Of a stretch of 40,749 bases of DNA, positions 13,213 to 34,752 are shown one piece after another. The position numbers and the translations under genes are program-made. Origin of the DNA: Halorientalis regularis (lineage in GTDB: Archaea; Halobacteriota; Halobacteria; Halobacteriales; Haloarculaceae). The DNA lies in assembly GCF_023698535.1 (NCBI RefSeq), contig NZ_JALJCL010000021.1, forward strand, positions 1 through 40,749. The letters are read 5' to 3'. How positions within the stretch are numbered: the first letter of the stretch is position 1; the number at the start of each line of letters is the position of its first letter. Below the pieces are notes generated by a model. The model did not search any database, had not been told where the DNA came from, and saw only the letters and a program-made list of their open reading frames with translations.

Positions 13213-13907
13213 TTAACTTTGGCATTGATTCCACCGGACGGCGAAGGCCTGGAGCCACGATTCTGCTGTCGGTGGCTCTACGTTACCGGACGTATTTGAA
13301 AACGAAGAGGTTCGGCGTTTTACCTCGCGGAACACACGTTCGATGGCATTCCGATTTCCGTGATGTGTTGTCTGAAATCGGAGTCCGGGTGCTCCAGCGC
13401 GGCTTTGAGGTTGTGCGCTTTATCGACGAGGAAGGTTGCCTGCTCGACCTGCTGTTTCTTGCGGATTTCACGGAGAGACAGCACAGTGAGTTGCGTGGTT
13501 CTGGTCTGAAACAGCCGCGCGTGGAGGAATTTATTGGTCTCAGGATCGACGGCGTTCACGAGAGCGAAGCTCTCGTGCAGCCCAACAGAACGCCTATGCC
13601 GTTCTGAGGACGGCGTACAGCCAGTGTCGTTCGTCGTTGATTTGAATCACAGTCTCGTCGACCGCGATCTGATTCGGAGCTCCGTCACTGGTTGGCTGTA
13701 AATCGGCCTTCTGCACCCAGTTATGGATGGCAGTCCGACTCCGTTCGACACCAAACCTCTCAAGATACTGTTTGGTATTCGAGAGTGATAGCCCAGCAAG
13801 ATGGAGCTGAATACCCACTTCAGCGATCTGCTCGGGTGTCCGCTCTCGCTGCATAAACTCCAACTCGACCCACTCGGTAGACTTGCTGAGGCGGTCTAAT
13901 TCGGTCA
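13213..13907 (-). pseudogene. IS6-family transposase, interrupted
   Basis: Read in pieces, the protein starts MTELDRLSKSTEWVELEF at ATG 13907, contains the TPEQIAEVGIQLHLAGLS and RTAIHNWVQKAD helix-turn-helix region, and then the first catalytic Asp in IAVDETVIQIND. The reading frame is broken after RHWLYAV by the insertion at 13548-13615 and resumes with VDPETNKFLHARLF and ATFLVDKAHNLKAALE (second catalytic Asp in LVDKA). A further one-base shift near 13385-13400 leads to HHGNRNAIERVFREVKRRTSSFS, which holds the catalytic Glu, and the stop TAA at 13215-13213. All three DDE residues survive, but not in one frame. Confidence 0.8.
13548..13615. repeat. 61-base double-hairpin insertion with 7-base direct repeats
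   Basis: GACGGCG occurs at 13548-13554 and 13609-13615. Between them lie two hairpins: CACGAGAGC/GCTCTCGTG with a GAA loop (13557-13577) and CAGAACG/CGTTCTG with a 7-base loop (13586-13606). Removing 61 bases (the segment plus one direct repeat) rejoins the IS6 transposase frame as WLYAVDPETN. This indicates a small mobile or transposed module that duplicated its target. Confidence 0.65.
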
Positions 13908-14260
13908 TAACCATCCGAATCAACGACCGCCTCACTCCTAACTTAACACAATCGACACGACGAGTACCAGGCTTTTTCAGGACGGCAAGAGTGTGCTCTC
14001 GAAGCCGGCACTGCTGCGGACGCTCAAAGTGCAGCACCACCTGTCGACACACGACGACCTCCGTGTGACCAGGATCGACAGCGCGGCGGGGGCGGGTGAC
14101 GGCTCGCGGGGCCGTCCTCGAGAGTGGTCGAACGAGTCAAAATGCAGTCGATCACATCGACAGCCGCGTAATCGTGTCTGATGGCGGTGAATCAGATCGA
14201 ACTGGTCGTGGAGCGTCTTCGAAGCGCTGGTGAGCGTAATCTTCGGGATGGACTGTCGCT

Positions 14261-14283
14261 GTCGGCGGCGGACTGCCGCCGAC
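14261..14283. repeat. GC-rich hairpin after the ISH3 transposase gene
   Basis: GTCGGCGGC, loop GGACT, GCCGCCGAC form a perfect 9-base stem 46-68 bases after the transposase stop codon and inside the element. It could block read-through transcription or contribute to 3' end formation. There is no T tract. Confidence 0.45.
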
Positions 14284-14328
14284 GCGACAGCGTTGCCACT
14301 CACGACCGCTGTCCGGATCGGTGGACAG

Positions 14329-15474
14329 CTACCGAAAGAACCGGTCGTTGAGTGGCTGGTTCGCTGGAACAGCACTGCGCACACCGAGTGCTGTCCAGGC
14401 GGCCCGCAGCACCATCTCACAGAACTCCGTGAACGACCACTGCCAGAGGCGGCGCCCCCCGCGGCGGGGCGCCGCCACGTACTTCCAGTGAAGATACCGC
14501 CAGCTGTTCTGGAGCAGCAGGCTCACGACAAACATCACCAGCCGTAGTCCAGCATCCTGAGAACTGGTGAACGCGAGGCTCTGCTTGGCTAATCGGTAGC
14601 TCGACTCGATGCCGAAGCGTTTGCTGTAGTGCTCTCGGGCATCCCGTGGCGTGTCGATGAACGGCGCGTCAGCGGCGTAGCCGTGACGCGCCACCCCGTG
14701 TTCGTCGTATCGTCCCTGCTGGTAGACACAGTCGATGAACACGGGGAAGGTCACCTCGCCGGCGAGATCGTGTTCGATCTCGCGGCTCCAGCCTCTGCTG
14801 AGTTCGTCTTGAATCGTCTCGCCCCACTTGACGATCGGCATCACGTAGGCGTAGTTGTGCGCGGACAGCAGTCCGAGACAGGTGCTGTTGTAGAATCCGC
14901 GATCGAGGTAGACGGCCTTGACGCCGAGGTCAAGGCCGTCGAGGAGTTCGAGGAACTCAGCGAGGACATCGCTGGTGGTGTCGCCAGCGACAAGCTGGCG
15001 CACCGCCAGCGTATACCGCTTGTTGCGTACCCGCGCGTACAGCGTCGCATACGCGTGAAACGTCGTTGTTCCGCGTTTCGCCTCCGATGAGTACAGCGCT
15101 TCTGTCTCGTCTTCGTCGCCGTAGTAGGGATCGAGGTGGAGGTCGGCGACGACCTCCACCGGTCGATCCAGGAGTGTCTCAAGCGCATCTCGTTGAAGCA
15201 GCGTGTCTCCAACCGCCTCAACAGTGTCAAGGTCGAACTGGTCGGTGAGATGTCCCCGGACGGTGTTGGCGTGCGGTGAGTCGTCTGTCGTTTCGCAGAC
15301 GTGGTTGATCGAGGTCCCGCCGGCGCTGGCGCCGGCGAGGACCTCGTATAAGGTCTCTGTCGTGACCTCAACGTCCTCACCAAGGTCTATCGCAAGCTCC
15401 TCGTCAAGACTGTTGACGACAAAATTAAGCAGGTGCTCTTCCTCTATCTCGCTGTCTGCTTGGGTGGCTTCCAC
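14329..15474 (-). CDS. ISH3-family transposase
   Basis: The 381-residue DDE transposase of the surrounding element. It cuts and joins the terminal repeats. An acidic N-terminal helical region (residues 1-100) is followed by the first catalytic Asp in EVVADLHLDPYYGD near residue 110, the second in KAVYLDRGFYN near residue 197, and the Glu in RFGIESSYR near residue 290. The last is part of the YREK-like signature of IS4-type enzymes. The C-terminus is basic (NQPLNDRFFR). Full length with no internal stop. Start ATG 15474 leaves 30 bases to the right terminal repeat, which would hold its promoter. Confidence 0.9.
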   Translation of the reverse strand: MEATQADSEIEEEHLLNFVVNSLDEELAIDLGEDVEVTTETLYEVLAGASAGGTSINHVCETTDDSPHANTVRGHLTDQFDLDTVEAVGDTLLQRDALETLLDRPVEVVADLHLDPYYGDEDETEALYSSEAKRGTTTFHAYATLYARVRNKRYTLAVRQLVAGDTTSDVLAEFLELLDGLDLGVKAVYLDRGFYNSTCLGLLSAHNYAYVMPIVKWGETIQDELSRGWSREIEHDLAGEVTFPVFIDCVYQQGRYDEHGVARHGYAADAPFIDTPRDAREHYSKRFGIESSYRLAKQSLAFTSSQDAGLRLVMFVVSLLLQNSWRYLHWKYVAAPRRGGRRLWQWSFTEFCEMVLRAAWTALGVRSAVPANQPLNDRFFR

Positions 15475-15636: not shown

Positions 15637-15842
15637 GAGGCGCTCGGCCTGCTCCGCCTGTAGAAGACGGTGGACGGCCGCGGGCGCATTCGGCCACCCA
15701 CACTCGGGTCGCGAACGGCTGTTCCCGCAACAGACCTGGAACCCCGCGTTGTCGCCTGTGTGAGAGACACACGAACGACCGCGTCGAGAAGTCGGCGGCA
15801 CGAGTGGAAGGCGGGCGTCCGGTGTGGATGGTCGTCGGGAGT

Positions 15843-16176
15843 TCACGCCGTGGGGTCCCGCGCAGTCAGGAGCCTCTGCGACATGAGTCTTCGGGCGACC
15901 ACGACCAGACCGTTCCCGAATCCCTCGCCGAAAATCGCCTGTCCGCCCTTCGTTTGCGGCATAATAGAGCTTACGAGGAGTGTCGAGCGGTCGACCCCCA
16001 ACAGTCGCTCGATCGTCGTGTCGTCTTCGGTGGTGTCGCCACCGTGTAACCACCCCAGGCCAGAGATAGACGTCGGTCAACGGCGGGAGCGAACTGGGTT
16101 GCCGACCATCTACGGCACTGACAGCACGGACGATGGCCGTGCTCACCGATTCACTACTCCCGGTTTCGTATTCCAT
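15843..16176 (-). pseudogene. Frameshifted gene with HalOD1-like N-terminus
   Basis: ATG 16176 opens MEYETGSSESVSTAIVRAVSAVDG..., very like the start of HalOD1 output-domain proteins (helix, then an SLPPL turn). Near 16062 the coding bias shifts one base into a frame reading LHGGDTTEDDTTIERL ... FGEGFGNGLVVVARRLMSQ and ending at the TGA at 15845-15843. The second part does not resemble the usual HalOD1 strands, so this may be a frameshifted, chimeric or decayed gene. It lies beside the double-hairpin module and the ISH3 element. Confidence 0.4.
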
Positions 16177-16372
16177 ACGTTCTGTACCGGACCACAGAGC
16201 CTGTATCGGTTTCGACCCGGACTCTCAAAGCGGTGTTTCACCCCGTCGGTCACGGCGGGAAACACGGCATCGCCAGCACCGACGTGACGGTCGTACTCTC
16301 AGAGAAGGCCGCTTTGCTCTCCCGGTCCGACACACCGGATACGATACCGCCGTTTGCGGGCGGAGGAGGCTG

Positions 16373-16657
16373 TCAACGGTCGTCGGTCACGCGCTCCTCG
16401 AACGACGCGGGCGCGAGTCGGGCCATCACCTGCTCGAGTTCCGCGAGCGACGTCGTCTGAACGTACTCCCTGCTGGTCTGCAACTCGCTTTCGTACTGGA
16501 CCTGAAACCCCCAGGTCTCCTCGTCGACGTATGCCGTCCGGTTGACCTGGAAAATCGCCTGGTCGGCGTGGAGTTCCGAGAGTGTCGCAAACGTCTGCCG
16601 TGCCGACTCCGGCGCGTCGGCAGCAGGGACGGTGAGCTTGACGCGCAGCGTTCGCAT
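16373..16657 (-). CDS. Hypothetical protein (94 aa)
   Basis: Start ATG 16657 (MRTLRVKLTVPAADAPESAR). The predicted pattern is strand, helix (ARQTFATLSELHAD), two strands (AIFQVNRTAYV and TWGFQVQYESE), and a helix (SLAELEQVMARL), reminiscent of a small ferredoxin-like or ACT-like sensor fold, which is inference only. It is acidic and well codon-biased, so probably real and cytoplasmic. It lies downstream of a frameshifted cysteine-rich gene on the same strand, with a GAGG just before the ATG. Confidence 0.65.
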   Translation of the reverse strand: MRTLRVKLTVPAADAPESARQTFATLSELHADQAIFQVNRTAYVDEETWGFQVQYESELQTSREYVQTTSLAELEQVMARLAPASFEERVTDDR

Positions 16658-16720
16658 CCTCAGACAGCGGCGCCGATTCGGCGATTCCAGTCCGGTCCGG
16701 TTGTCGGTTCCACGGTCCGG

Positions 16721-16902
16721 TCACTCGATTCGGGCGCCCCTGCAGTCGTTCCGTGACCCCCACCTGATGCTCTTGCGGTCACACTCGGGACGGCACAGCC
16801 AGGCGTCTGTGGTGTGCCCCCGTCGAGCACTGGGAGTCGTGGAGGGTCACAGACTGCAGTGCAGTCGTGCGGGGTCTCGTCACGGGGCCGCTCCAGCGAC
16901 AT
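16721..16902 (-). pseudogene. Small cysteine-rich protein with an apparent frameshift
   Basis: ATG 16902 (MSLERPRDETPHDCTAVC) has a TATA-like AGGCTTATTA about 30 bases upstream. At or before the five-base C-run at 16817-16821 the GC-rich third-position signal leaves this frame and continues in one reading HTTDAWLCRPECDR ... WGSRNDCRGARIE to the TGA at 16723-16721. The corrected product of about 60 residues would have a Cys-x3-Cys pair on each side, a plausible zinc finger. The original frame instead continues to a TGA at 16662-16660 next to the next gene, but that part has poor codon bias. The exact join is uncertain. Confidence 0.4.
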
Positions 16903-17103
16903 TGTCGTAGTTATGTTCGGGTAGCAGCGGTAATAAGCCTTACACACGGCCGATTCGGGGTCAGTCCCGGGTCACGAGACCACACACCTGTCCTGCCCGC
17001 GAGCGACCATCACCGAGCCCAATCAGTGTCCGGTTTCCCACTCGGATGCCGGTCAGCAGTGTGAGGCCGGGGTGGGTCGGCGGCGCAGACGGTATCTCAC
17101 CGT

Positions 17104-19770
17104 TTACTCCGTCGGCTCTGACGTCGACTCGTCGTCGCTGCTGCCCGCCTCGCTGTCCAGCGCCGCAATCACGTCGTCGATGATGAGCTGGCCCGTCGCG
17201 CGGTCCAGCGGGTCGTTCTGGTTGCCACAGTCCTCGGACATGATGCACATCGGGCAGCCGCGACGTTGCCCGCAGTCACACCCTGCGATGTGTTCGCGGG
17301 TCCGTCGAAGGATCGTCTCGAAGTTGTCAAAGATTGACCGCGTGAATCCGATGCCGCCGTCGATGCCGTCGTGTACGAACCAGACCGGCCCGGGGATGGC
17401 TTCGTCGGGATGCTCCGGCATCGACAACCCGCCGATGTCGTTGTTATCGATCAGCAACTCAAGCGGCGCCAGCTGGATCACGCCGTGCTCGGCTGCGTGA
17501 ATCCCGCCGCCGTACGTGTACCGTTTTTCACCCTCTGGAACCAGCGGGTCCCGACCCGCGCGGTCGGTCGGCTCCAGCAACGGCTCGTCCAGCCGGTCGA
17601 GTGTCGTGTCGATGTGATCCGCAGGCAGCGACACCCACAGTAGGTCCGTGTGTAGCGTCAGCGGCGGCGACCCGGTTGGCAGTGGCCCTTCGACGAGCTC
17701 GCCGGTACTGACCGTCCGCACCACGTACTCGTTGTACGTGACGTCGACCGTGCCCTGCCCGAAGTAGAGGTCGATCCCGCCGTCGAGCGAGCGGTGGTCG
17801 CGGGGCTGCAGGTTGCTGATCGATTTCTGTGAGAGCGTCTGTGTGTACAGCCCGGTGTCGGCCGTTTCGACGTGGATCCGCGGGATCCGGGCGTCCCGGT
17901 GGATGTCGACGACTTCGTACTGCTGGCCGGCGTGTAAGAACAGTGCGCCCTCGTGATAGTCGCGATGTGCGCTCTCAGGCGCCACCGGGTCGTGGTCGAT
18001 GTCCCCGTCCCGACAAACCACTACGTACTCCATGTCCCGGGTCCCGTACATCGAGATACGGCTCTGCGGGCGCGGGTCGCCGGTGTACACCACGCCACCC
18101 AGTGAGTCCAGGCTGCTCGTGGACTCCAGTACGCCGGCGTCCTGCCACATCTCTACCATTCCTTCGAGACGGTCGTGGCCGCCGAGGAATGACGCGTCGT
18201 CGTCGGTCAACGGGAAGTCGGCTGCCGCCGCCAACACGTGGTCGGCGTACACATTGGCGTTGTCGATGGACACCACAGCGTTCTCGACCGACCCCGAAAA
18301 CAGGTACTCCGGGTTATCCAGAATGTAGGCGTCCATCGCGTCGGTACTCCCGACCAGCACGGAGAGCGCGTCGGACTCACCGCGGCCGGCGCGCCCGACT
18401 TGCTGCCAGAAACTCTGTCTGGTCCCCGGGTACCCGCTGGTAACGGTGGCGCCCACGCTCCCGATGTCGATGCCGAGTTCCAAGGCGTTCGTCGACGCGA
18501 CGGCATCTACCTGCCCCGCTTTCAGCTGGTTCTCGACACCGCGGCGAGTGCGTTTGCCCAGGCCGGCATGGTAGGCCTCCGCATCCACGCGTCCCGAGCG
18601 GCTGTGCGAGTCCGCTGCGTCGACGATTTGTCTGGCGGCAATCTCCGTGCCCTGCCGGGCCGAGCAGAACTGCAACGTCTGTGTGTCGTTCATTCCGAGG
18701 TGTGCGGTGACTTTCGCGGCTTCGGACCCAGTCGAGCGGCGGGCGTCCTCGAAGTCGGAGAGCTGGTCGGCGTCCCCGTTCGGGGCGGCCTGCCCGTCCG
18801 TGTCGTCGTCGGCCACCTGGTCCCAGTCGACGGGCGGCTCCCAGAGGACGATGTCGCGCCGGCCGCGTGGGCTGCCGTCGTCCTCGACTACTCCGAACTC
18901 CAGCCCGGTGAGCCGGCGTGCGTGCGCCGCTGGATTCCCGATCGTCGCTGTCGTCATCGAAAACTGGGGGCGGGAGTCGTAGTGGGCGGCCACCCGGCGG
19001 AGGCGGCGCAGAATCCACGCGACGTGGGTGCCGGTGATGCCAGTGTACTCGTGGGCTTCGTCTACCACCACCAGGTCGAGATGTTTGTAGAACCGCGCCC
19101 ACCCGCCATCCCGCGCGTGCCGCGGCAGATACGCGTTCAGCCCGGCGGGGTTGGTGATGATAAGGTTGCAGTCGTTACGGATGCGGCGCTTCCGGTCGCT
19201 CGGCGTGTCGCCGTCGTACACACCGACACTGAGGTCAAGTCCCCAGTCGTCGCGCAGTTTCGTATTCAGCTCCTGCTCCTGGTCGCGACTCAAGGCTTTC
19301 ATTGGGTAGAGACAGAGCGCGGTGGCCTGGTCGTCCTGCAGGTGGTTGCGGGCGGCCTGCAGCGCGTAAATCCAGGTTTTCCCGCTGGACGTCGAGGTAG
19401 TGGTGACGACGTTGTCGCCTGTCTCGAGCTTCCGGAGGGCTTCGGCCTGGTGGGTGAACAGGTCGTACGCCATCTGTGCAGCTAGTTCCGGGCGGAGCAC
19501 GTCGTCGGCAGGAACGGTGTCTGCGGGCTCGGGCGGGAGCCGCCGGCTCTCGACGATCTGTCCCTGGTAGTCGGGGAACGACCGCTGGAGGGCGTCGTCG
19601 GACAGGACGTCCTGTCGGGCGCCGGCAGGTACGGCCGTCGTGTCGGTGTCGGCGCCGGTGTTCTGGCCACCGTCGGCCAGCAGTTCGGGCGGTCGAGACG
19701 ACCGCGTGTGCGTGTCCGGCGGACTGCCGGGCTGTGTGTCGTCGGTCGGATAGATGGTGTCGTCGGACAT
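17104..19770 (-). CDS. DEAH-box helicase, YprA/MrfA-like
   Basis: An 888-residue superfamily 2 helicase. Motif I is STSSGKT (126-132), motif II DEAH (237-240), motif III TTATIGN, and motif VI QQVGRAGRG in the second RecA domain. The C-terminus carries a cysteine cluster (Cys831, 833, 839, 842, 848), as in the DUF1998/MZB domain of B. subtilis MrfA (YprA) and Hrq1-type 3'-5' helicases. MrfA works with the exonuclease MrfB in excision of mitomycin C damage in B. subtilis; a similar role here is inference from the pairing. The first 60 residues are an acidic, low-complexity extension. ATG 19770 lies two bases after the stop of the exonuclease gene, so they are cotranscribed and probably coupled. 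Confidence 0.9.
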   Translation of the reverse strand: MSDDTIYPTDDTQPGSPPDTHTRSSRPPELLADGGQNTGADTDTTAVPAGARQDVLSDDALQRSFPDYQGQIVESRRLPPEPADTVPADDVLRPELAAQMAYDLFTHQAEALRKLETGDNVVTTTSTSSGKTWIYALQAARNHLQDDQATALCLYPMKALSRDQEQELNTKLRDDWGLDLSVGVYDGDTPSDRKRRIRNDCNLIITNPAGLNAYLPRHARDGGWARFYKHLDLVVVDEAHEYTGITGTHVAWILRRLRRVAAHYDSRPQFSMTTATIGNPAAHARRLTGLEFGVVEDDGSPRGRRDIVLWEPPVDWDQVADDDTDGQAAPNGDADQLSDFEDARRSTGSEAAKVTAHLGMNDTQTLQFCSARQGTEIAARQIVDAADSHSRSGRVDAEAYHAGLGKRTRRGVENQLKAGQVDAVASTNALELGIDIGSVGATVTSGYPGTRQSFWQQVGRAGRGESDALSVLVGSTDAMDAYILDNPEYLFSGSVENAVVSIDNANVYADHVLAAAADFPLTDDDASFLGGHDRLEGMVEMWQDAGVLESTSSLDSLGGVVYTGDPRPQSRISMYGTRDMEYVVVCRDGDIDHDPVAPESAHRDYHEGALFLHAGQQYEVVDIHRDARIPRIHVETADTGLYTQTLSQKSISNLQPRDHRSLDGGIDLYFGQGTVDVTYNEYVVRTVSTGELVEGPLPTGSPPLTLHTDLLWVSLPADHIDTTLDRLDEPLLEPTDRAGRDPLVPEGEKRYTYGGGIHAAEHGVIQLAPLELLIDNNDIGGLSMPEHPDEAIPGPVWFVHDGIDGGIGFTRSIFDNFETILRRTREHIAGCDCGQRRGCPMCIMSEDCGNQNDPLDRATGQLIIDDVIAALDSEAGSSDDESTSEPTE

Positions 19771-19772
19771 TG

Positions 19773-21371
19773 TCAGCTGAAATCCGAAAGTGAACCCTGA
19801 CGGCCAGTGGACACGTCGTCCTCGCCGCCTGCTGTGCGAAGGGGGGCGTCCCCGATTGCCTCGTAGATCGTCGCGAGCGCGCGGACGTCGTCTTCGCAGT
19901 ACGCTTCCAACCGGCCCCAGTCGGGTTCGGGGATGTCTTCGCCGGGGTCGGCAGTGGTGGCGGCGTCGCGCCACCGGGTGTAGATTGTCGCGGCGGTTTC
20001 GCCGTCGACCCCGCTGGTCTGTGGCTCCCACCCGATGGCCTCGGCGACGGCTTCGAGCCTGTTCGACCGGCCCGGCAGCACGGCGTTGTCGCTGTTGCGC
20101 GCCCAGTACAGCGGGTCGAAGGTGCGGCGGGACTCCCACTCCTCGAGTCGGTCCGGGCAGTGCTCGCGGAACTGCTCGGTGAGGATGTCGAAGTCGAACC
20201 CGTAGCCGTTCCACGCGACCAGCGGGCGTGACCGTGAGATGCCCTGTAGCCAGGTGGCGAACCCTTCGAGGTGGGCAGTCGGGTCACCCGGAGTCTGCTG
20301 GCGGAACGGATAGTAGGCGTCGCTGTCGGAGCCGCCGTCGAGCACCCCGACCAGCCACGCGACGGACGCGCCCAGCCCGTCCGTCTCGATGTCGATAAAC
20401 ACCGGGTCGTCCGGGAGCGAGGCTGCGGACGTCCGGACGATGGTACCGGTGGTGAGCGCCTCCGCAGACGTCGTGACGGTGCGGGCGGTGGCCTGGCCGG
20501 TGTCGAGTGTGTTTGCGACGGCGTCGACACTCATGTCGCGGAGTTGAGTTACAGTCCTGACACCGTGGGAGCGGAGTGTGTCTGCACGGGCATCGCCGAC
20601 CTGTTCGACGGCGTGCAGGCCGAAACTCCCGGGGTCCAGCGGCGTCGTGGTGACGTGACCGCTGGCGTACAGCGTGGTGTGGAGGAGGTCGTGAGAGGTG
20701 GTGTCGGCGGCCGCACCCATGTTCGACGCTTGGCCGACGCCGAGTACGTCGACGCTCACCTCGGCGGCACTGCCGGGCGGGTCGGCCGTCCTGCTGCCGG
20801 TACCGGACTGGCGACCAGCGGCGGCTGCAGGGAGTTGCTGTGTGGTCGTGTGTCCGGCTTCGACCATGGTGGAGGCGTGGACGACAGCAGGCGTCTCCGC
20901 ACTGTCGTCGGGTGAGGGCTGCCAAGCGTCCGGTATCTCCGCGAGATAGGCGGCCAACCCGTCGAGCACGGTCTCTCGGTTTCGTGGGACGACACGCATC
21001 TCGAAGGCGTTCGAAACGACGACGACACGGCGCGGTGTGGTCTCGGCCGGTCCGAGATCGGCCGGCGTCTCCGGCAGTGTGTCGGGGGCGGGGGCCGGGG
21101 CCACGACGACGACGAGTTCGCCGTCTGGTGTGGCGACTGTACTCGGTCGCATCCCCCGGTCTGCACGAAGAACTGGTTGCTCGACGGCGTGAAGGAGGCG
21201 CTGCGCGACGACGTTCTCGTGTGGCGGGACCGGAAGCACCGCATCGGCATCGGTGGCGGAAACCGCGTCGGCGACCGTCGGGTCGGCGTCGTACTCACGG
21301 ACGGCCGCGCCGGGCACGACGAGAAGTTCGAGCGACGGGGTGTCGGACGAGGGCAGGTGCTCAGGTAGCAT
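19773..21371 (-). CDS. DEDDy exonuclease, YprB/MrfB-like
   Basis: A 532-residue protein with a C-terminal RNase H-like exonuclease domain (about 320-510). Motif Exo I is FIDIETDG (Asp327, Glu329), Exo II is NGYGFDFD near 388-395, and Exo III is YCEDD (Tyr491-x3-Asp495), a DEDDy arrangement as in YprB/MrfB. The segment 253-310 (VEQVGDARADTLRSHGV...) looks like helix-hairpin-helix units for DNA binding. The first 250 residues are haloarchaeal and include a low-complexity Ala/Thr/Pro linker. The partner helicase follows after two bases. In B. subtilis the order is helicase then exonuclease; here it is reversed. The start ATG 21371 is the first in frame. Likely substrate: DNA opened by the helicase. 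Confidence 0.85.
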   Translation of the reverse strand: MLPEHLPSSDTPSLELLVVPGAAVREYDADPTVADAVSATDADAVLPVPPHENVVAQRLLHAVEQPVLRADRGMRPSTVATPDGELVVVVAPAPAPDTLPETPADLGPAETTPRRVVVVSNAFEMRVVPRNRETVLDGLAAYLAEIPDAWQPSPDDSAETPAVVHASTMVEAGHTTTQQLPAAAAGRQSGTGSRTADPPGSAAEVSVDVLGVGQASNMGAAADTTSHDLLHTTLYASGHVTTTPLDPGSFGLHAVEQVGDARADTLRSHGVRTVTQLRDMSVDAVANTLDTGQATARTVTTSAEALTTGTIVRTSAASLPDDPVFIDIETDGLGASVAWLVGVLDGGSDSDAYYPFRQQTPGDPTAHLEGFATWLQGISRSRPLVAWNGYGFDFDILTEQFREHCPDRLEEWESRRTFDPLYWARNSDNAVLPGRSNRLEAVAEAIGWEPQTSGVDGETAATIYTRWRDAATTADPGEDIPEPDWGRLEAYCEDDVRALATIYEAIGDAPLRTAGGEDDVSTGRQGSLSDFS

Positions 21372-21652
21372 ACACGGAGAGACCCCGAGCGTTTGTGTCG
21401 TTCATACTGCTGTAGTCCTGCTTAGGCTGAGTGGATTGAAAATGCTTGGAACTGGCGAGGGTCGCACCGCGGAGCACTCCCGGCCCTGACTGAGTCGTGG
21501 GCCGGCCGACGACCACGGCCTGGGATACCGACGGGCCTCGGCTCCGGGTGGGACCACACGCCGGCGACCCGACGATGGACCGCCGGTCGTCGCCTCGGCG
21601 GCGTTCGGCGGCAGTCGCTGTGCGGTGGACCGTTCGGTCCGCACGGAATCGC

Positions 21653-22621
21653 TCAGAAGTCTCCGAGAGATAGCTGGTTCTGCCGGAGCGAAGTGGCGTC
21701 GTATCCGGCACTGGTCAGGTGGTCGGCCAGCGTGGCCGCCGAGCCGTGCTGGGTGTACACCGTTTCGGGACCGACGGTGTCGGCTACGTCGAGCAGTTCC
21801 GCGAAATCACAGTGGTCCGAGAGCGGGAACGTGACGTCGTAGTCACCCTGGAATTTGAACGACTGGTCTACCGCCCACCCCGAGAAGCCCGCTTTCACGG
21901 CACCGGCCTCCGTCGCCAGCCTGTCGACCCAGTCGATGCGGCCACTCGTCATCGGAAGCACCAGTGCGTCGCCCTCCCGCAACGAGGTGTCCTCGCCGTA
22001 GTGGTCCACGTCGAAGGTGACGTCACGGTGAGTCTCGATAACCTCGTTGACTCGTTCGACAGCCGGGGTCGTGAACACGCGCTCGCGGTCGGCCTCGGCG
22101 GCGAGTAACTGGAGTTTCTGCGCGCGGCCGAGTGCGTATCCGAGGAGGATGACCGGTTCCGGGGTCTCCCGGAGCCACGTGTGGATGTCGTCGGCAATGT
22201 CGTCGTGCGACGGGAAGGTGTACTCCGGTTCCCCATACGTCGCTTCGATGACGAGGACGTCCGCAGACGGTGGCTGGAATCCATCGAGGTAGAACCGTGA
22301 TCGGGTGCAGATGTCACCGGTGTAGAGGTATCGAGTCCCGTCTGGATCTGTCACGAGGGCGGCCTGGGACCCGGCGACGTGGCCGGCTGACAGGAGGGTA
22401 ACCCGAGGGTCGGTCGTCCGGTGGAGTGGCACGTCACGCCGGGCGGTCGCCAGCGCGGCTGTCAGTTCCGAGCAGACCGCCGTCGCCTCGCCCTCCGGGT
22501 AGTGGTCGCCGTGTGCGTGAGTTACCACGTTCACGTCGCCGTCGAGGTCGTCGGCGTCACAGACGACGCGTGTCCCGTCCGAGAGCGTCAGTTCGATGCC
22601 GTCTCTGTACCTGACAGTCAC
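21653..22621 (-). CDS. Metallo-beta-lactamase-fold exonuclease, ligase-associated
   Basis: A 322-residue MBL-fold nuclease related to archaeal mRNA 3'-end processing factors and to bacterial ligase-associated DNA exonucleases. Zinc motif HAHGDH at residues 35-40, LLSAGHVAGSQ with a metal-binding His, YLYTGDI with the bridging Asp, and late FPLSDHCDF and YTQHGS histidines are all present. It lies 61 bases after the DNA ligase stop on the same strand, so an operon is likely. The pairing mirrors the bacterial LigB/MBL exonuclease gene sets and suggests DNA rather than RNA end processing, which is inference. The start is GTG 22621 (VTVRYRDGIEL); the longer open frame upstream is basic and overlaps the ligase gene. 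Confidence 0.82.
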   Translation of the reverse strand: MTVRYRDGIELTLSDGTRVVCDADDLDGDVNVVTHAHGDHYPEGEATAVCSELTAALATARRDVPLHRTTDPRVTLLSAGHVAGSQAALVTDPDGTRYLYTGDICTRSRFYLDGFQPPSADVLVIEATYGEPEYTFPSHDDIADDIHTWLRETPEPVILLGYALGRAQKLQLLAAEADRERVFTTPAVERVNEVIETHRDVTFDVDHYGEDTSLREGDALVLPMTSGRIDWVDRLATEAGAVKAGFSGWAVDQSFKFQGDYDVTFPLSDHCDFAELLDVADTVGPETVYTQHGSAATLADHLTSAGYDATSLRQNQLSLGDF

Positions 22622-22682
22622 GTTCGTCGCTACGTGCCGATGTCGAATGGTACTTGCGCCCGTGCCTATGCCAACCGCCACC

Positions 22683-24401
22683 TCACTGGCCGTCGTAGAG
22701 CGCGGTGACGCGGTCCAGGGTGTCGGCGTCCGCCGGAGCGAGGTCGTCCCGGAAGCCGAGGAACCGCGGGAATCGAAGCGCGTAACCCGAACCGTACTCC
22801 GTCGAGGCCTGAATCTCCTCGTACTCAACTTCGAACACCAGTTCGTACTCTAGCTCGACGTCTCGTCCCTCGCGGGCCGTGACGAGCGGTTCGAGGCGGT
22901 CTGTCAGCGTCCGGAGTTCCTCGTCGGTGTAGCCGGTCGAGAGTCGACCGACCTCGCGGAACGTGTCGTGTTCGGGGTCGTAACAGGCGAGGTAGAGCCG
23001 GCCGAGCTGCTCGGAGCGGCGCCCCTCGCTGTACTTCGCGCGCGAAACGACGAGGTCCAGCGGTTCCATCGTCGGCTTGAGTTTCAGGAGCCGTCCGACG
23101 CGGCGACCCGGCTGATAGGCGGCATCCGGGTTCTTGATCACTATCCCTTCGTGGCCGGCATCCAGCGCCTCGCGGTACAGCGCCTCTGCGGATTCCAGAT
23201 CGTCGGTCGATGTCCACCGCCACCGGGTCCGCTCCAAGCCGGCCCGCGGTTCGTCCGGTGCCGGTGTGACCGTCTCGAACGCCGATTCGAGTGCATCCAG
23301 ACGGGTTACGAGCGGTTCGTCGAGCAGGGTTCGGTCGAGTGCCAGACAGTCGAAGAGGTGAACGACGGCGGGTATATTCCGTGCCAGTGTCTCGACGTCC
23401 GACTCGCGTTTGATTCGGCGGGAGAACTCCTGGAAAACGGTCGGGGTTCGCTGGTCGGACGAAACCGTCTCCGGGGTGTACCCAACGAGTTCACCGTCGA
23501 GGACGACCCGCTCGACGGTGACACCAGCACGAAGCGCCCGGACCACGTCGGGGAACTGCTCGGTGACGTCTTCGAGTCGACGGGTGAACAGCCGGACATC
23601 GTCCCCGTCGACGTGGATCTGGATCCGGATGCCGTCGTATTTGTACTCACAGAGCGCCCGACCGTCGCTCTGTGCGTCGCGCACCCCGTCTTCGAGTGCG
23701 TCCGCCTTCTCCGCGAGCATCGCCTTGACCGGCCGGAACAACTGGACGTCGAGCGCGTCGAGACCGGCACGCCCCTCGTCCCGTGCGGTCTCGGCGACGA
23801 CGCGGTAATCGGTGGTCACCTGGAAGGCACGCTCGACGGCGGTGATGGACGCCGAGGACCCATCGAGGAACGCGACCGCGATAGCGTCCCGAATGGTGCC
23901 TTCACCGATACCGACGCGCATGTGACCCAGCGCGGTCCGGACGACGTAGCGGGCTCCGTCCGGATCCGCGTCTGCGAGGAGTCCAGCGAGCCTGTCGACT
24001 TTCCGGTCCTGACTGCCCGTTCCCTCGTACGTCGCGAGTTCTCGCAGTTCGTCGTGGACGCGTTCGACGGTCAGCGGTTCCGAGAACAGCGTCTGCTGAC
24101 CGCCGTTGGCGACCGCCCAGGCGGCCGCGTCACCGAGGTCACCGGTTTCCTTCCAGCGCTCTCTGACGTCCGACTCCGCGGCACCGGTCGCCCGGAGAAT
24201 CGCCGAGAGAGTAAGGCTCGACGAGACGCCCAGTTCCGTCCGGTCGTACGCCGGCGACAATCGCCCCCTGACGAGCGTGACCAACCGCGAGAGCATGTCC
24301 CCGGCATCCGCGAAGACCTCGGCGAGCGCGTCCCGTTTCTCGTTGTTCGAGTCAGTTGCCGCGAGGCGGTCGTACACGTCGACGAGGGCCTCGTACTCCA
24401 T
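22683..24401 (-). CDS. ligA: ATP-dependent DNA ligase
   Basis: Seals nicks in duplex DNA during replication and repair. The 572-residue product has the archaeal three-domain layout: helical DNA-binding domain (about 1-215), adenylation domain with the nucleotidyl lysine Lys254 in EYKYDGIR, motif III-like LFDCLAL, motif IV EGIVIKNP, motif V LLKLKP, and a C-terminal OB-fold (from about 430) ending FLGFRDDL. Length is normal for the family. Start ATG 24401; an AGGCTTTTGC element lies about 28 bases upstream. The MBL-fold nuclease follows in the same direction. The photolyase gene is divergent. The gene symbol follows haloarchaeal usage for the ATP ligase. Confidence 0.95.
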   Translation of the reverse strand: MEYEALVDVYDRLAATDSNNEKRDALAEVFADAGDMLSRLVTLVRGRLSPAYDRTELGVSSSLTLSAILRATGAAESDVRERWKETGDLGDAAAWAVANGGQQTLFSEPLTVERVHDELRELATYEGTGSQDRKVDRLAGLLADADPDGARYVVRTALGHMRVGIGEGTIRDAIAVAFLDGSSASITAVERAFQVTTDYRVVAETARDEGRAGLDALDVQLFRPVKAMLAEKADALEDGVRDAQSDGRALCEYKYDGIRIQIHVDGDDVRLFTRRLEDVTEQFPDVVRALRAGVTVERVVLDGELVGYTPETVSSDQRTPTVFQEFSRRIKRESDVETLARNIPAVVHLFDCLALDRTLLDEPLVTRLDALESAFETVTPAPDEPRAGLERTRWRWTSTDDLESAEALYREALDAGHEGIVIKNPDAAYQPGRRVGRLLKLKPTMEPLDLVVSRAKYSEGRRSEQLGRLYLACYDPEHDTFREVGRLSTGYTDEELRTLTDRLEPLVTAREGRDVELEYELVFEVEYEEIQASTEYGSGYALRFPRFLGFRDDLAPADADTLDRVTALYDGQ

Positions 24402-24819
24402 CAGCGGTGGCTACGGGACCAACAGCAAAAGCCTCTGGGCCGTCACGGCTCGGGTCCGGACGACAGCTCCGGGCAGGCCGACTGGAATCCACGGGAGGGA
24501 TGTCGGATTGGCGGTCAATCTCCGGAGGACACAGTCGACCGACGCCAGTTACAGGCCGAAGTTCGAGCGTGTATCGAGTCCGTCGCTGGCCGGATCGGGG
24601 GACGCCCCCGCCGTCGGCCTGCGAACTGCGTCGTCGGCCGGTGTCGAGAGCGAGCGTTTCGCCGACGGGGCGAACCCGGCTCCCGTCGCTGTGTACACGT
24701 CCTGCGTGGCGGACGCGACCCGGCCACGTCTCTACGCGCAGGCCGACTGCCCCCGAGGGTGCCCCTGGAGCGGTTCACGACGGAACTAAACGACTCAAGG
24801 ACGTAGTAGCGGTGTATCG

Positions 24820-26865
24820 ATGTCGGACGAGAGCGACCGTGAAATCGAGGACGCAACCGTCGGTACCGTCGCCGATGTCCTCGGCGACACGACACGGCCA
24901 CACTCGTCCGGCATCCCGGCACCGGCGGACCTCGACGGTGTCGAGTCGGGAACCGGATACGTGGTCTGGCATCGAAAGCACCTCCGACTCGCCGACCACC
25001 GAGCGCTGTCGCGAGCGGTCGCCGAGGGCGACGCCGTCTGTCCGCTGTTCGTGTTCGACCCCGCGTTCTACAGCAGCGACGGACTGGCGTGTGACGCTCG
25101 TATCCGGTTTCTCCACGAGGCAGTCGCGAGTCTGAACCGACTGTATGCGGCCGCGCCGAAGCGATCGGTTCTCCGCACGACGACACAGTCCGCCGCCGGT
25201 CTCGCCGAGCCGACACCAGCGGAATCAGGCCCGTCGGCCGGTAAAACCGATGCTGGCAGACGCGAGGCGAGCCTCGGACGGGCTGACGTATCGGGTCTGA
25301 CCGTCGGTTTCGGTGACCCCGTCGACATCCTCTCGCGGTTCGTCGACCGCGGTTGGTCGGTCCTGACGATGGCGACGCCGACGAGTCGCTACGGCCAGCG
25401 CCGAGACGAACGCGTCCGGGCGGCCTGTGGCAACGCTGTCACCTTCGTCTCCGGTGACGGTCTGGTTCGCGACCGGGAGTGGCCGCGGGCCGACTGGCAG
25501 TCTCACGTCGAAGACTGGCTCACAGCGTCACAGCACACACCGGCGTGGGACGACCACGACACCGCTCAACTCAGTATCGAAACCGGCGTTACGCCGGCAG
25601 CAGTCGACGAGAAGTTCGACATCACGCCGGTGAAAACTCGGGTTCCGTCTGGGACACATCGCGCAGCGACCAAACGCCTGCGCGAGTTCGTCGATCAAGT
25701 ACCCGCGTACCCGACGAACATCTCCGCGCCACAGGACGCCCGAGAAGGCACGAGCGGGCTCTCACCGTACCTCAACTTCGGCCTCCTTTCGGTTCGACAG
25801 GTGTACCAACACGTGCTCGACAACGCACCGTCCTGTCGCGGTCGCAGCATGTTCACCGACCGGCTGGTCTGGAACATGCATTACAACCAGAAGTTGTCGG
25901 ACTGGCCGGGGTGGACGGAGCGGGCGGTCAATCCCGTTTTCGAGGGGCGCAACGAGGACCGTCACGACCCGGAACTGGTCGCCGCCTGGAAAAACGGCGG
26001 GACGGGATTCCCGATGGTCGACGCCGCGATGCGGTGTCTCCGGCGAACCGGGTGGCTGAACTTCCGGATGCGGGCGATGTGTGCGTCGTTTTTTACACAT
26101 ATTCTCCACCAGCCGTGGTGGATCGGGGCCGACTGGTACCACCATCACCTGATCGATAGCGACGTGGGTATCAACTACACACAGTGGCAGAGCCAGGCCG
26201 GCCTCATCGGGAAGCCGTCACAGCGGGTGTACAACCCGCGGAAGCAGGTCCGCGACCACGACGCCGACGGCGTATGGATCACGCGCTGGGTTCCCGAACT
26301 CCAGCCGCTGCCGAGCCAGTTCCTCGCCCGGCCAGAGCGGACACCACTGGCCATCCAACAGGAGTGTGGTGTGACGATCGGTGCGGACTACCCGAGCCCC
26401 GTCGTCGATTTCGAGACGCGTCGCCAAGCGTTCTGGACCCGGCACGAACGGCGCCGTTCCGACGCCGCACGCGAGCTCCGGCGTCCGGAGATTGCCAAAC
26501 GGGCGTCGTTCTCCGGCGGATACGAGGCCGCACAGGCCATCGCCGACGAGTACGGTCGGGACGGGACCGAAGACGGAACGCAGCTCTCGCTCGGCGAAAT
26601 CGACGACGGCGGAGACGAGGACACCGGCGGGGACCGTTCGGTGACGGGACAGGGTGACGCGGACGCGGCCGACGCCGAGGGCCCATCGACCAGCGACGAT
26701 ACACAGTCACCGATGCCGACCGGCGTCGGAGCGAGCGCCGGAGAACCCGCACCGGACGACGAGACCGCGGTCCCCGACGACCATGCAGGCGACGGCAGCG
26801 GGACCGACCACGACGGCGACGACGACGCGTCAGACGCACAGACGAGCATCCAGCGGTTCGAGTGA
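24820..26865 (+). CDS. Deoxyribodipyrimidine photolyase/cryptochrome family protein
   Basis: Light-driven repair of pyrimidine dimers, or a related cryptochrome sensor. The 681-residue product has an N-terminal alpha/beta photolyase domain (about 45-200, VVWHRKHLRLADH ... PLFVFDPAF) and a C-terminal FAD-binding helical domain (about 270-530). The latter has GLSPYLNFGLLS, the MHYNQKLSDWPGW block, GFPMVDAAMRCL, TGWLNFRMR and the INYTQWQSQAG flavin region. An N-terminal extension of about 45 residues and an acidic, low-complexity C-terminal tail of about 100 residues are unusual. The tail ends QTSIQRF, which resembles a PCNA-binding PIP-box-like end (Q-x2-I-x2-F), an inference. ATG 24820 has a TATA-like ACTAAACG at -35 to -28. 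Likely role: DNA repair. Confidence 0.88.
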   Translation: MSDESDREIEDATVGTVADVLGDTTRPHSSGIPAPADLDGVESGTGYVVWHRKHLRLADHRALSRAVAEGDAVCPLFVFDPAFYSSDGLACDARIRFLHEAVASLNRLYAAAPKRSVLRTTTQSAAGLAEPTPAESGPSAGKTDAGRREASLGRADVSGLTVGFGDPVDILSRFVDRGWSVLTMATPTSRYGQRRDERVRAACGNAVTFVSGDGLVRDREWPRADWQSHVEDWLTASQHTPAWDDHDTAQLSIETGVTPAAVDEKFDITPVKTRVPSGTHRAATKRLREFVDQVPAYPTNISAPQDAREGTSGLSPYLNFGLLSVRQVYQHVLDNAPSCRGRSMFTDRLVWNMHYNQKLSDWPGWTERAVNPVFEGRNEDRHDPELVAAWKNGGTGFPMVDAAMRCLRRTGWLNFRMRAMCASFFTHILHQPWWIGADWYHHHLIDSDVGINYTQWQSQAGLIGKPSQRVYNPRKQVRDHDADGVWITRWVPELQPLPSQFLARPERTPLAIQQECGVTIGADYPSPVVDFETRRQAFWTRHERRRSDAARELRRPEIAKRASFSGGYEAAQAIADEYGRDGTEDGTQLSLGEIDDGGDEDTGGDRSVTGQGDADAADAEGPSTSDDTQSPMPTGVGASAGEPAPDDETAVPDDHAGDGSGTDHDGDDDASDAQTSIQRFE

Positions 26866-27658: not shown

Positions 27659-29176
27659 TCACGGTGACCGACTCGACGAAACGACGCTCCCGAGGGCGGC
27701 GGTGATGACTGCCTTGTCGGCGTCGCTCAGGATGGTGACCCAGATCACCCAGAGGTACCCGATCACGACGGCACCGGTGACGACGAGTCCGGGGAGCGTG
27801 GCGAGACGGGTGGTCGCCACGGCGGCGACGGCGAGGCCAGTGAGCCCGACTCCGACCGAGAGGAGTTCCGTGCGGGTAAATGGGACGAATCCTTCACGGA
27901 CGTACAGCAGACAACACTCCGTCGCGTTGTTGAACAGGACGGCGACGAGATACGAGACACCGAGACCGACGACTCCGAAGCGAACGGTGAGGAGGAGTAT
28001 GGTCGGGAGCGCGACGGCGGCGTTGAGCACCTGGAGGGCGAGACTCGCCCGTTCGTTGTCGGTCATCAGCAACACGAGTCCGACGCTCCCGAAGGTCGTA
28101 GCGAGGTACTGTCCGATCACGACGAGCAACAGAACGACCGCCGCGTCGGCGTAGGCCGGTGAGAACAGTGTCAGTAGCTCGCGATGGTACGGGACGAGTA
28201 GCAAGACCACAGGGGTCGCGGCGACGGTCGCGAGTCTGGCTGTCCGCTGATACAGCCCCTCGAGGCTCGATGCTCGCCCAGCGTCGTACAGCCGCGCCGC
28301 GATTGGCGGGAGGATGGTGTTGACGCCGCTCAGCGGCCAGCGGACGAGCTGGCCGAACACGACAGAGAGGCTGAACAGCCCCGCTTCGACGGGGCCGAGT
28401 ACGACCGCCATGACGACGAACACGGCCCGACGCTGGACGAGTTCGAGTATCGCGACACCGCTCGCGGTAACGACGTACCTGAAGAATGCACCGAGCAAAG
28501 CACGGTGACGAGCCAGCTTGACTCCGGTTCGGCGGACGACCAGCACCGTGGCGACCGTCCCACCAACGAAAGTCGCTCCGACGACACTCGTCCAGAGCGT
28601 CGCCACCGCGTCGTCGGCAGCGAGAACGAGAGTGCCGACGAGCGCCCCCAGCAGGAGGGCCGCTGGTCGGAACACGTGTGAGACGAGCATCGCAGTTCGA
28701 ATCGCTCGAACCGCCCGAAACACGTCCCGAGCGTTCCGTAACAGCACGAACGGGAGCAGTCCGAGCGCATAGAGGAGCAGCGTCGACCGATGGCGCGGTT
28801 CCAGGAGCGTCAGCTGTATCAAAGGGTCGCGAAACCAGACGATGGCCCCGGCGAGCACCGCCCACGTCACAAAAATACCGACGAGTCCGGCCGTCACGAC
28901 GGATTTCCGAGCCGACGGGTCGGCCCGCGCCATCGTCCGTGAATACCCGTCACCGATCCCTGCAACGAGGTTCTTCACAATCGTCTCGCCCCGGACGAAC
29001 ACCGAGAGGTAGCCGTACACGACGGCCCCGGACAGCGCCGTCACGACGAACGAGAACGCGACGATCAGCGCCCGTTCGACACCGAAGGCCACGACGCCGA
29101 CGCTGGCTTTCTCTACGACCTCGACCAGCAGGTCGTCTTCGCTGTCGCGTGTGTCCTCACGTGTGGTGCCTGACAT
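27659..29176 (-). CDS. Polysaccharide/oligosaccharide flippase (Wzx-like, MOP superfamily)
   Basis: A 505-residue membrane protein with about 14 hydrophobic segments, as in lipid-linked oligosaccharide flippases. Distinctive parts are the N-terminal GVVAFGVERALIVAFSF helix, the repeated basic ARADPSARKS and LLRNARDVFRAVRAIR loops, the LVRWPLSGVNTILPPIAARLYD block in the middle, and a late FNNATECCLLYVREG loop. The acidic N-terminus (SGTTREDTRDSEDD) is cytoplasmic. It would flip glycan-charged dolichol lipids across the membrane for S-layer glycosylation or exopolysaccharide. No glycosyltransferase genes are adjacent, so the pathway is unknown. The start ATG 29176 precedes the conserved acidic N-terminus. 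Confidence 0.85.
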   Translation of the reverse strand: MSGTTREDTRDSEDDLLVEVVEKASVGVVAFGVERALIVAFSFVVTALSGAVVYGYLSVFVRGETIVKNLVAGIGDGYSRTMARADPSARKSVVTAGLVGIFVTWAVLAGAIVWFRDPLIQLTLLEPRHRSTLLLYALGLLPFVLLRNARDVFRAVRAIRTAMLVSHVFRPAALLLGALVGTLVLAADDAVATLWTSVVGATFVGGTVATVLVVRRTGVKLARHRALLGAFFRYVVTASGVAILELVQRRAVFVVMAVVLGPVEAGLFSLSVVFGQLVRWPLSGVNTILPPIAARLYDAGRASSLEGLYQRTARLATVAATPVVLLLVPYHRELLTLFSPAYADAAVVLLLVVIGQYLATTFGSVGLVLLMTDNERASLALQVLNAAVALPTILLLTVRFGVVGLGVSYLVAVLFNNATECCLLYVREGFVPFTRTELLSVGVGLTGLAVAAVATTRLATLPGLVVTGAVVIGYLWVIWVTILSDADKAVITAALGSVVSSSRSP

Positions 29177-29513
29177 GGTTCTCTCGCTCCGCCGACGCAC
29201 GCCTCGTGCCGGTCGTCGCTCCCCACCGAGACCGAACGCGGGCCAGGTCGGACCGACGACGGCACTGCACCGATGTCGGCATCGTACCTCATCTTCGGGA
29301 CCCGCACGTATTCGACTTCTTCAGAAGGTGCGGGCGCCGCAGCGACCGGACTCCGGTGGCGCCCGGTCGGAACCAGCGACTCGGCTGCGACCGACATGCT
29401 CGAACCCCTATGGACAGTCGGGACGGAGTGAGTCCCGCGGCCAGGGGGACGCTGGCGGAACGTTGCCGAAAGAGACAGGACCACAGGGCGTCTATGTTCG
29501 GATAGCTTTCGAC
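29177..29513. other. Divergent intergenic region, flippase to HflX-like gene
   Basis: Both flanking genes read outward from here, so both promoters must lie inside. I see no canonical TATA box at 25-30 bases from either start. Frames inside lack coding bias. No repeat or RNA gene is evident. Confidence 0.4.
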
Positions 29514-33504: not shown

Positions 33505-34559
33505 CACTCCCACCGCGTGGACTCGATCGCTTTCGAGACGGCATTGCGGTCCTCGGCGGTCGCTCGCGCCTCGAACACCTGTTTCGCGGCCGCTATCGGC
33601 GCCATGTCGAACTCCGAGACGAGTCGTCCGATCTTGATGACCGTCCGGTGGGACGTCGGCGTAGCCAGGTCCCGGTCCCGATAACTCGCACGGAGACTCG
33701 CGGCCAGTTCGGTCAGTCGCTCGGCGACTCGTTCGTCGTGCTCGACCCCACGTTGTAGTGCGGTCGTCTCGTACAGTAGGCGGCGCTCGGCCGTCGGCGA
33801 GAGGTAGTCGAGTTCGAGTTCCCAGAACCGCGACCGGAAGGCGTCGTTCAACGGGCTCGTGCCGGCGTACCGCGGCGGGTTCATCGTCGCGACGAAGCGG
33901 AATTCGGGGTGTGGCTGGAGTACCTCCGAGGTCGAGGTAACCGCCAGCTGCCCGTTGCGCTCGGTCAGTCCGTGAAGCGGCATCGTCGCGGCCGGCCCGG
34001 CTGCGTTCAGCTCGTCGGCCACGAACGTCCAGCCCTGCTCGACGGCGCGATACAGAATCCCGGGTGTGAACTCGAAGGCGTGTTCGGCCCCGACGAGTTC
34101 GGCGGCCTCGCCGAGCCCGATGTCGTGTTCGTCGGCCAGCCGTCTGACCCGGGCGATTCGGTCCTCGTCGGCGCCGCTGTTCGGTGCGAACTCGCCCACG
34201 AGGTCGGCGTATGTCGTGCCCGACCCGAAGTTGACCCGGACGAGCGGACGGTTCGTTCGGGCAGAGAGGTGTGCGAGCAGTCGGTCTTTTCCGACGCCCG
34301 TCTCCCCGGTCAGCAACAGCGCGTAGTCCTCGTCGGCGAGGAACCGCGCGGCGAGTTCGACGTCCGTCCAGCCGTTCCGTACCTCCCGCTCGATGTACGC
34401 GTGGTCGGGGTCGGGGACGAGCGGGTGGTCGGGGTCGTCGAGCACCGAGAGCTCGTGGAACGTCTCGCCGGAGTGTCCACCCGCCGGCCGTCTCAGGTCG
34501 GCCACAGCGATATCGCCGGCCCGTTCGTCCGCCACCGATGTGGTCCCGGAATCGGTCAT
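33504..34559 (-). CDS. MoxR-type AAA ATPase
   Basis: A 351-residue AAA+ ATPase of the MoxR (AAA_5) group, which act as chaperones with vWA partners in metal insertion, complex maturation or stress response. Walker A is GETGVGKD (85-92), Walker B is the unusual TFVADELN (178-185), and sensor 1 is VATMNPPR (223-230). FRSRFWELEL supplies the arginine-finger region. The last Walker A residue is Asp in place of Ser/Thr, noteworthy but seen in some MoxR proteins. A basic stretch upstream of ATG 34559 is not part of the protein. A TATA-like ACATATACT lies at 23-31 bases upstream. The gene is followed by its vWA partner with a four-base overlap. Confidence 0.87.
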   Translation of the reverse strand: MTDSGTTSVADERAGDIAVADLRRPAGGHSGETFHELSVLDDPDHPLVPDPDHAYIEREVRNGWTDVELAARFLADEDYALLLTGETGVGKDRLLAHLSARTNRPLVRVNFGSGTTYADLVGEFAPNSGADEDRIARVRRLADEHDIGLGEAAELVGAEHAFEFTPGILYRAVEQGWTFVADELNAAGPAATMPLHGLTERNGQLAVTSTSEVLQPHPEFRFVATMNPPRYAGTSPLNDAFRSRFWELELDYLSPTAERRLLYETTALQRGVEHDERVAERLTELAASLRASYRDRDLATPTSHRTVIKIGRLVSEFDMAPIAAAKQVFEARATAEDRNAVSKAIESTRWE

Positions 34560-34581
34560 CGACACGGATAGCCGGTCCGCG

Positions 34582-34590
34582 AGTATATGT
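34582..34590 (-). promoter_or_regulatory. TATA box of the MoxR-vWA operon
   Basis: ACATATACT on the minus strand, 23-31 bases before the MoxR ATG at 34559. It defines the start of the two-gene operon. Confidence 0.6.
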
Positions 34591-34752
34591 TCCGCGGAAC
34601 CGGCGAGCGAGTCCAGCCACAGCGACCGGGCCGGTTCGAGCGAGCGTGACCGGCCGCCCGTCGACCCTGTCTGTCGCTCAACGTCCCGGCCCTCGTCGTC
34701 GGGTCGGGACACCGGGGCCGACCGGGCGCACGGTTCCGGCGTCCGCAGGAGA

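Follow-up and report, generated by a model that had tools for sequence, protein, structure and literature searches.

Gene content of the locus

Positions 17104-26865 of the window, i.e. of the whole 40,749-nt stretch analysed here (contig C13; the haloarchaeal draft genome, labelled G000, comprises 45 contigs and 4.03 Mb), hold genes for a YprA helicase, a YprB-like DEDDy exonuclease, a β-CASP nuclease of the metallo-β-lactamase (MBL) fold, an ATP-dependent DNA ligase and a photolyase homologue. A first-pass annotation of the sequence had placed five repair-like genes within 10 kb, and all five were found intact. The intergenic distances of 2 nt (YprB-YprA) and 61 nt (ligase-MBL, with the MBL start at GTG 22621) were exactly as annotated; MBL and YprB are separated by 281 nt. 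The features are as follows.

17104..19770, minus strand: YprA/MrfA-like superfamily 2 (SF2) helicase, 888 amino acids, start at 19770; Pfam DEAD, Helicase_C and MZB; no terminal clamp motif
19773..21371, minus strand: YprB/MrfB-like DEDDy exonuclease (predicted 3'-5'), 532 amino acids; RNase_H_2, 93 bits
19779..19799, minus strand: C-terminal PIP-box-like motif of YprB (PIP, PCNA-interacting protein), QGSLSDF, residues 525-531 of 532; in 21/21 homologues
21653..22621, minus strand: MBL/β-CASP nuclease, 322 amino acids, similar to ligase-associated exonucleases (NCBIfam TIGR04122, 136 bits); likely start GTG 22621
21656..21676, minus strand: C-terminal PIP-box-like motif of MBL, QLSLGDF, at the extreme end of the protein; in 23/23 haloarchaeal homologues
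22683..24401, minus strand: accessory ATP-dependent DNA ligase, in the tree a sister clade of haloarchaeal LigA; all three Pfam ATP-ligase domains (N/M/C)
24084..24098, minus strand: QQTLF in the N-terminal domain of the ligase, candidate internal PIP-like motif; Q102 conserved
24402..24819, no strand: divergent intergenic region between ligase and photolyase genes, 418 nt, from the coordinates
24820..26865, plus strand: photolyase/cryptochrome homologue, 681 amino acids, with long acidic C-terminal extension; FAD_binding_7 (214 bits) and DNA_photolyase
26581..26601, plus strand: internal QLSLGEI of the photolyase homologue, residues 588-594, aligning where shorter relatives carry their terminal motif; Q588 and L591 invariant
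26839..26859, plus strand: terminal PIP-box-like motif of the photolyase homologue, QTSIQRF, residues 674-680 of 681, from the sequence

YprB is composed of a β-rich N-terminal part, a helix-hairpin-helix (HhH) domain akin to the one in RadA/Rad51, a DnaQ-fold nuclease and a disordered tail. Its initial assignment to the DEDDy type was confirmed, D327, E329, D393 and Y491-x3-D495 being invariant. Foldseek matches of the YprB model were weak (best E 1e-3, of the TREX1 homologue/ExoI type) and support the DnaQ fold only; no Foldseek identity was obtained for the N-terminal part. In YprA, the MrfA Zn-binding domain (MZB) scored 60.9 bits and its Cys cluster is conserved. Since helicases of the YprA kind also occur in antiviral defence islands such as DISARM, ARMADA and BRIGADE, the locus could belong to this type, but this is very improbable: the helicase has a YprB partner, reading of the neighbouring open reading frames revealed neither a methylase nor a second helicase of these systems, and the paper on YprA-type systems assigns helicases associated with MrfB/YprB to the repair branch.

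TIGR04122 was the best-matching named family for MBL, although the score of 136 bits is below the curated cut-off of 325. Invariant residues comprise the HxHxDH motif, H81, D103, H270 and H292, and by fold the model matches CPSF73/Ysh1, archaeal CPSF and SNM1A.

Photoreversal had also been attributed to the locus. A photolyase homologue is present, and the FAD-binding domain, the N5-proximal Asn and two electron-transfer Trp residues are kept. In class I photolyases, a Glu, an Asn and a Met (E283, N349 and M353 in A. nidulans) contact the cyclobutane pyrimidine dimer (CPD). At the positions of these residues (PDB 1owl) the window protein carries the invariant R348, F415 and A419. Because the CPD-contact residues are replaced throughout the family, photoreversal by this protein is doubtful, and a CPD repair function should not be assumed for this haloarchaeal family. 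Another member with R/F/A and a PIP-like end is encoded in G000 (C9:56927-58240, locus L069); acidic tails occur in some members. There is a haloarchaeal precedent for a photolyase homologue without a photorepair function: no participation in photorepair was found for Halobacterium Phr1 (PMC10052015).

Clamp-type motifs at protein ends

All MBL (23/23) and YprB (21/21) homologues end in Q-x-x-[ILM]-x-x-[F/W/Y], at most two residues from the stop, and in the photolyase family 22 of 23 members carry Q-x-x-[hydrophobic]-x-x-[F/Y] near the C-terminus, as judged by reading. The Q and the L/F columns are invariant or nearly so, whereas the preceding linkers vary in length and sequence; in YprB, Q525 and L528 are invariant although the linker is not. 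In AlphaFold2 models the motifs lie in low-confidence, disordered tails with incipient helix: the predicted local distance difference test score is below 50 at 515-532 of YprB, with a short helix at 528-531, and likewise below 50 in the MBL tail (316-322). With their extreme terminal position on a flexible tail, the motifs match the PIP box (QxxI/L/MxxFF/Y) apart from the second aromatic residue. The PIP box is the short sequence by which archaeal enzymes bind PCNA, the sliding clamp through which repair enzymes are recruited.

The motif is rare in other genes. It was found in only one of 540 other genes of the fetched loci, a PolY gene, and, with a slightly wider pattern, in two out of the 351 genes sampled from 400 kb of G000, again PolY (..QTSLGEFE) together with FEN1 (..QTGLDRWT). 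Presence in three of the five locus genes against three of 891 corresponds to a clear enrichment (hypergeometric p ~2e-6). FEN1 is a PCNA client. As PolY and FEN1 are both such clients and were the only other carriers in the 400-kb sample, the motif can be linked to PCNA, and the terminal QxxLxxF provides a simple rule which in that sample picked only known clamp clients plus the enzymes described here. Candidate PIP boxes have been described at the C-termini of PolB, PolD2 and PolY of H. volcanii (PMC2737543). For the photolyase, MBL and YprB of haloarchaea, no report of a PIP box was found in the open-access library searched.

In a comparison of MBL relatives across other phyla, the motif was present in those of haloarchaea, nanohaloarchaea, Methanomassiliicoccales and some few further archaea; none of the bacterial relatives compared carries it. 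The two photolyases of other families in G000 have no terminal PIP-like tail. Most accessory ligases contain QQ[ST]LF or QRTLF at Q102, and the known archaeal ligase PIPs are presumably located similarly. YprA lacks a terminal motif; its internal QSRISMY (569) was considered as a clamp motif and set aside, not being terminal. As an observation apart, one solitary MBL gene (L021:9397-10392) lies ~5 kb from a PolY gene (15688-17067) with the same terminal motif.

Altogether, the tails of MBL, YprB and the photolyase homologue suggest recruitment by PCNA. The peptide Q-x-x-L-x-x-F might bind another partner, its connection with PCNA being drawn from sequence, but with PolY and FEN1 as the remaining carriers in the G000 sample we regard this as quite improbable. 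A common theme is indicated more strongly by the clamp-type tail, shared by three of the five proteins, than by the adjacency of the genes.

Distribution of the gene pairs

Gene order was surveyed in 96 genomes of the family, and selected loci were then read. MBL orthologues were present in 22 genomes, YprB in 34 and the window-type photolyase family in 34. YprA adjoined YprB in all 23 loci read. The accessory ligase was found in 15 genomes, directly upstream of MBL in 13 of these (61-nt gap in the window), so that MBL shares with TIGR04122 proteins the adjacency to an ATP-dependent ligase. The two tight pairs, proposed earlier as coupled units, thus recur as conserved modules. In G018 both genes are present and unlinked, and eight genomes have MBL without the accessory ligase. 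In G002, which has no MBL, the accessory ligase was read as two segments; this match (G002:C4:323064-324881) may reflect decay. Solitary MBL genes in two genomes (L023:9441-10457 and L028:9532-10521) stand between translation/transcription genes (RpoF-like, KsgA, HemK-like; named by sequence reading).

The ligase scored 501 bits against LigA_Halo (NF041331), for which the cut-off is 830. A maximum-likelihood tree contained two clades, one of the MBL-associated ligases (17 rows) and one of canonical LigA (13 rows), each supported by 100/99, and bacterial LigB was far off; bacterial branches are long and the exact rooting is unsure, but both clades are well supported. That the window gene is canonical LigA is ruled out by the score, by its separate clade and by a canonical copy on contig C11. 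LigA and the accessory ligase rarely occur together: LigA was found in 2 of 15 genomes with the accessory ligase, one of them G000, and in 47 of 81 without it (Fisher p 0.002, uncorrected for phylogeny). G000 contains a second ligase-MBL pair (C15:31817-34558; L009:11818-14562), 59% and 54% identical to that of the window, beside ParA- and Cdc6-like genes (named by sequence reading) on a plasmid-like contig. Homologues were also located on haloarchaeal megaplasmids.

All five genes stood together only in G000 and G082, the whole region being ~98% identical between the two. Since the five genes meet only there while ligase-MBL and YprB-YprA recur, the five-gene island is an assembly of conserved modules peculiar to one lineage. 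The first-pass annotation had proposed one shared pathway, refutable if the genes were adjacent in this genome only and shared no damage response. This objection holds in part. Gene order does not support a single pathway, the five being adjacent only in G000 and its near-identical relative G082; what stands is the conservation of both tight pairs and a second association of YprAB with the photolyase. The latter was seen in genus g20 (G035, G047 and G059; loci L058, L059 and L047), where a photolyase gene of the window family comes after YprB-YprA in convergent orientation, an arrangement different from that of the window.

These data bear on the possibility that the neighbourhood arose by chance, i.e. 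that two repair operons, independent of each other, and a photolyase homologue met once in a fluid accessory region and have no joint function, PIP tails being usual for archaeal repair enzymes. Its probability is, in our estimate, only somewhat short of even. Eleven genomes have both MBL and YprB, and the two are linked only in G000 and G082; by a rough model one linkage among ~9 lineages is expected by chance ~4% of the time, and transposase-like open reading frames lie nearby at 13594-15474 of the window. The g20 arrangement, however, places YprAB next to the photolyase a second time, and two such events among ~9 lineages have p ~8e-4 by the same model. No empty site for the island was readable; the flanking gene 27662-29200 occurs within the genus only in G000 and G082. 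Farther along the window, a long open reading frame (31246-34620, start codon uncertain) resembles in its C-terminal half a von Willebrand A (CobT-like) protein.

Proposed function and comparison with known systems

The locus is probably best explained as a patchily distributed accessory DNA-repair cluster, in which two conserved operons and a divergent photolyase homologue provide PCNA-tethered enzymes. The gene content, the two conserved pairs, the conserved motifs, the intact active-site residues, the disordered tails of the models and the ligase phylogeny are established here, whereas PCNA binding, the polarity and substrates of the enzymes, a hand-off between them and any cooperation of the two operons are inferred. 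MBL, YprB and the photolyase homologue would be brought to DNA by PCNA via the terminal PIP box on the flexible tail. YprA would unwind damaged DNA, and the clamp-tethered YprB would degrade it 3'-5', an excision similar to that by MrfAB. The tethered MBL may act like SNM1A and trim ends, and its partner ligase might seal the product after PCNA-dependent gap filling. A bolder version is tentative, and we would rather expect it not to hold: a haloarchaeal excision route independent of UvrABC and organised by PCNA, with a MrfAB-type pair, a SNM1A-like MBL plus dedicated ligase, and a repurposed photolyase exchanged on the clamp, the ligase-MBL module having been assembled independently of the LigB cluster.

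Several observations weigh against the repair cluster. The confinement of the five-gene adjacency to one lineage gives weak support to a joint action of the two operons, and in 9 of 22 genomes MBL has no linked ligase. The terminal motif has one aromatic residue where the consensus has two; the second also varies in candidate H. volcanii PIPs (PMC2737543). Furthermore, MBL has an invariant His at motif C (His292), as in RNA-cleaving β-CASP enzymes, and homologues of it frequently carry the annotation mRNA 3'-end processing factor (Halorussus, Haladaptatus, Halocatena). The last two points speak for an RNA-processing nuclease similar to aCPSF or RNase J, whose pairing with the ligase would reflect repair of RNA-DNA hybrids or RNA, not DNA excision, and the nearest solved relatives by sequence and fold are indeed CPSF73/Ysh1 and archaeal CPSF. 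We nevertheless regard this as unlikely: the fold of SNM1A, a nuclease that acts on DNA crosslinks and whose PIP box has been verified (PMC7607226), is almost equally similar, the best named family is that of ligase-associated exonucleases (TIGR04122), the partner is a DNA ligase, and the clamp-type tail is present in 23/23 homologues.

The repair cluster can be compared with several known systems. Human SNM1A (DCLRE1A) is likewise an MBL/β-CASP nuclease, functions in crosslink repair and carries a PIP box that was verified by experiment and is required for foci (PMC7607226), corresponding to the PIP-like motif of MBL. The two are distant in sequence, SNM1A has in addition a UBZ domain, and the ligase pairing has no counterpart in SNM1A.

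With class I CPD photolyases (A. nidulans, 1owl) and haloarchaeal Phr2, the photolyase homologue has in common the FAD-binding domain, the N5-proximal Asn and the two Trp residues. It differs from the class I enzymes in the R/F/A set, which replaces E/N/M, and in the PIP-like tail. Among haloarchaeal ligases, LigA forms the sister clade of the accessory ligase; LigN coexists, in 93 of the 96 genomes, whereas the accessory ligase is patchy (15/96).

Like the bacterial LigB/Lhr-Core/MPE/MBL-Exo cluster (TIGR04120-04122, PdeM), the haloarchaeal locus pairs an ATP-dependent ligase with a TIGR04122-like MBL. In bacterial loci MBL precedes the ligase, in one annotated example (Comamonas L153) followed by Lhr-Core and PdeM/MPE; in the haloarchaeal locus the ligase precedes MBL, and neither Lhr-Core nor MPE was found beside the ligase in the window. 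The bacterial ligase is LigB, whereas that of the window groups with archaeal LigA, and bacterial MBLs are without a PIP-like tail. Transfer of a LigB operon from bacteria as the origin of ligase-MBL is ruled out, given the ligase tree and the opposite gene order. Because the ligase is separate from LigB, the gene order is reversed and Lhr-Core/MPE are absent, the simplest reading is an independent assembly of the ligase-MBL module, which is apparently convergent with the bacterial cluster.

The likeness of YprA and YprB to MrfAB of B. subtilis, a system that protects specifically against mitomycin C, was pointed out in the first-pass annotation and holds in part. An SF2 helicase with MZB stands next to a DnaQ-superfamily exonuclease with four invariant acidic residues, as in MrfAB. 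B. subtilis MrfB is a DEDDh enzyme (His258) with a C-terminal tetratricopeptide repeat (TPR) domain (PMC11194089). In contrast, the window YprB is of DEDDy type with an invariant Tyr491, has an N-terminal extension with HhH, and in place of TPR ends in a disordered linker with the PIP-like motif. If the tails bind PCNA, MrfAB and ligase-MBL, two repair modules familiar from bacteria, would in archaea have become coupled to the eukaryote-type clamp, in parallel to human SNM1A, which would offer a handle on archaeal repair of bulky or crosslink-like damage.
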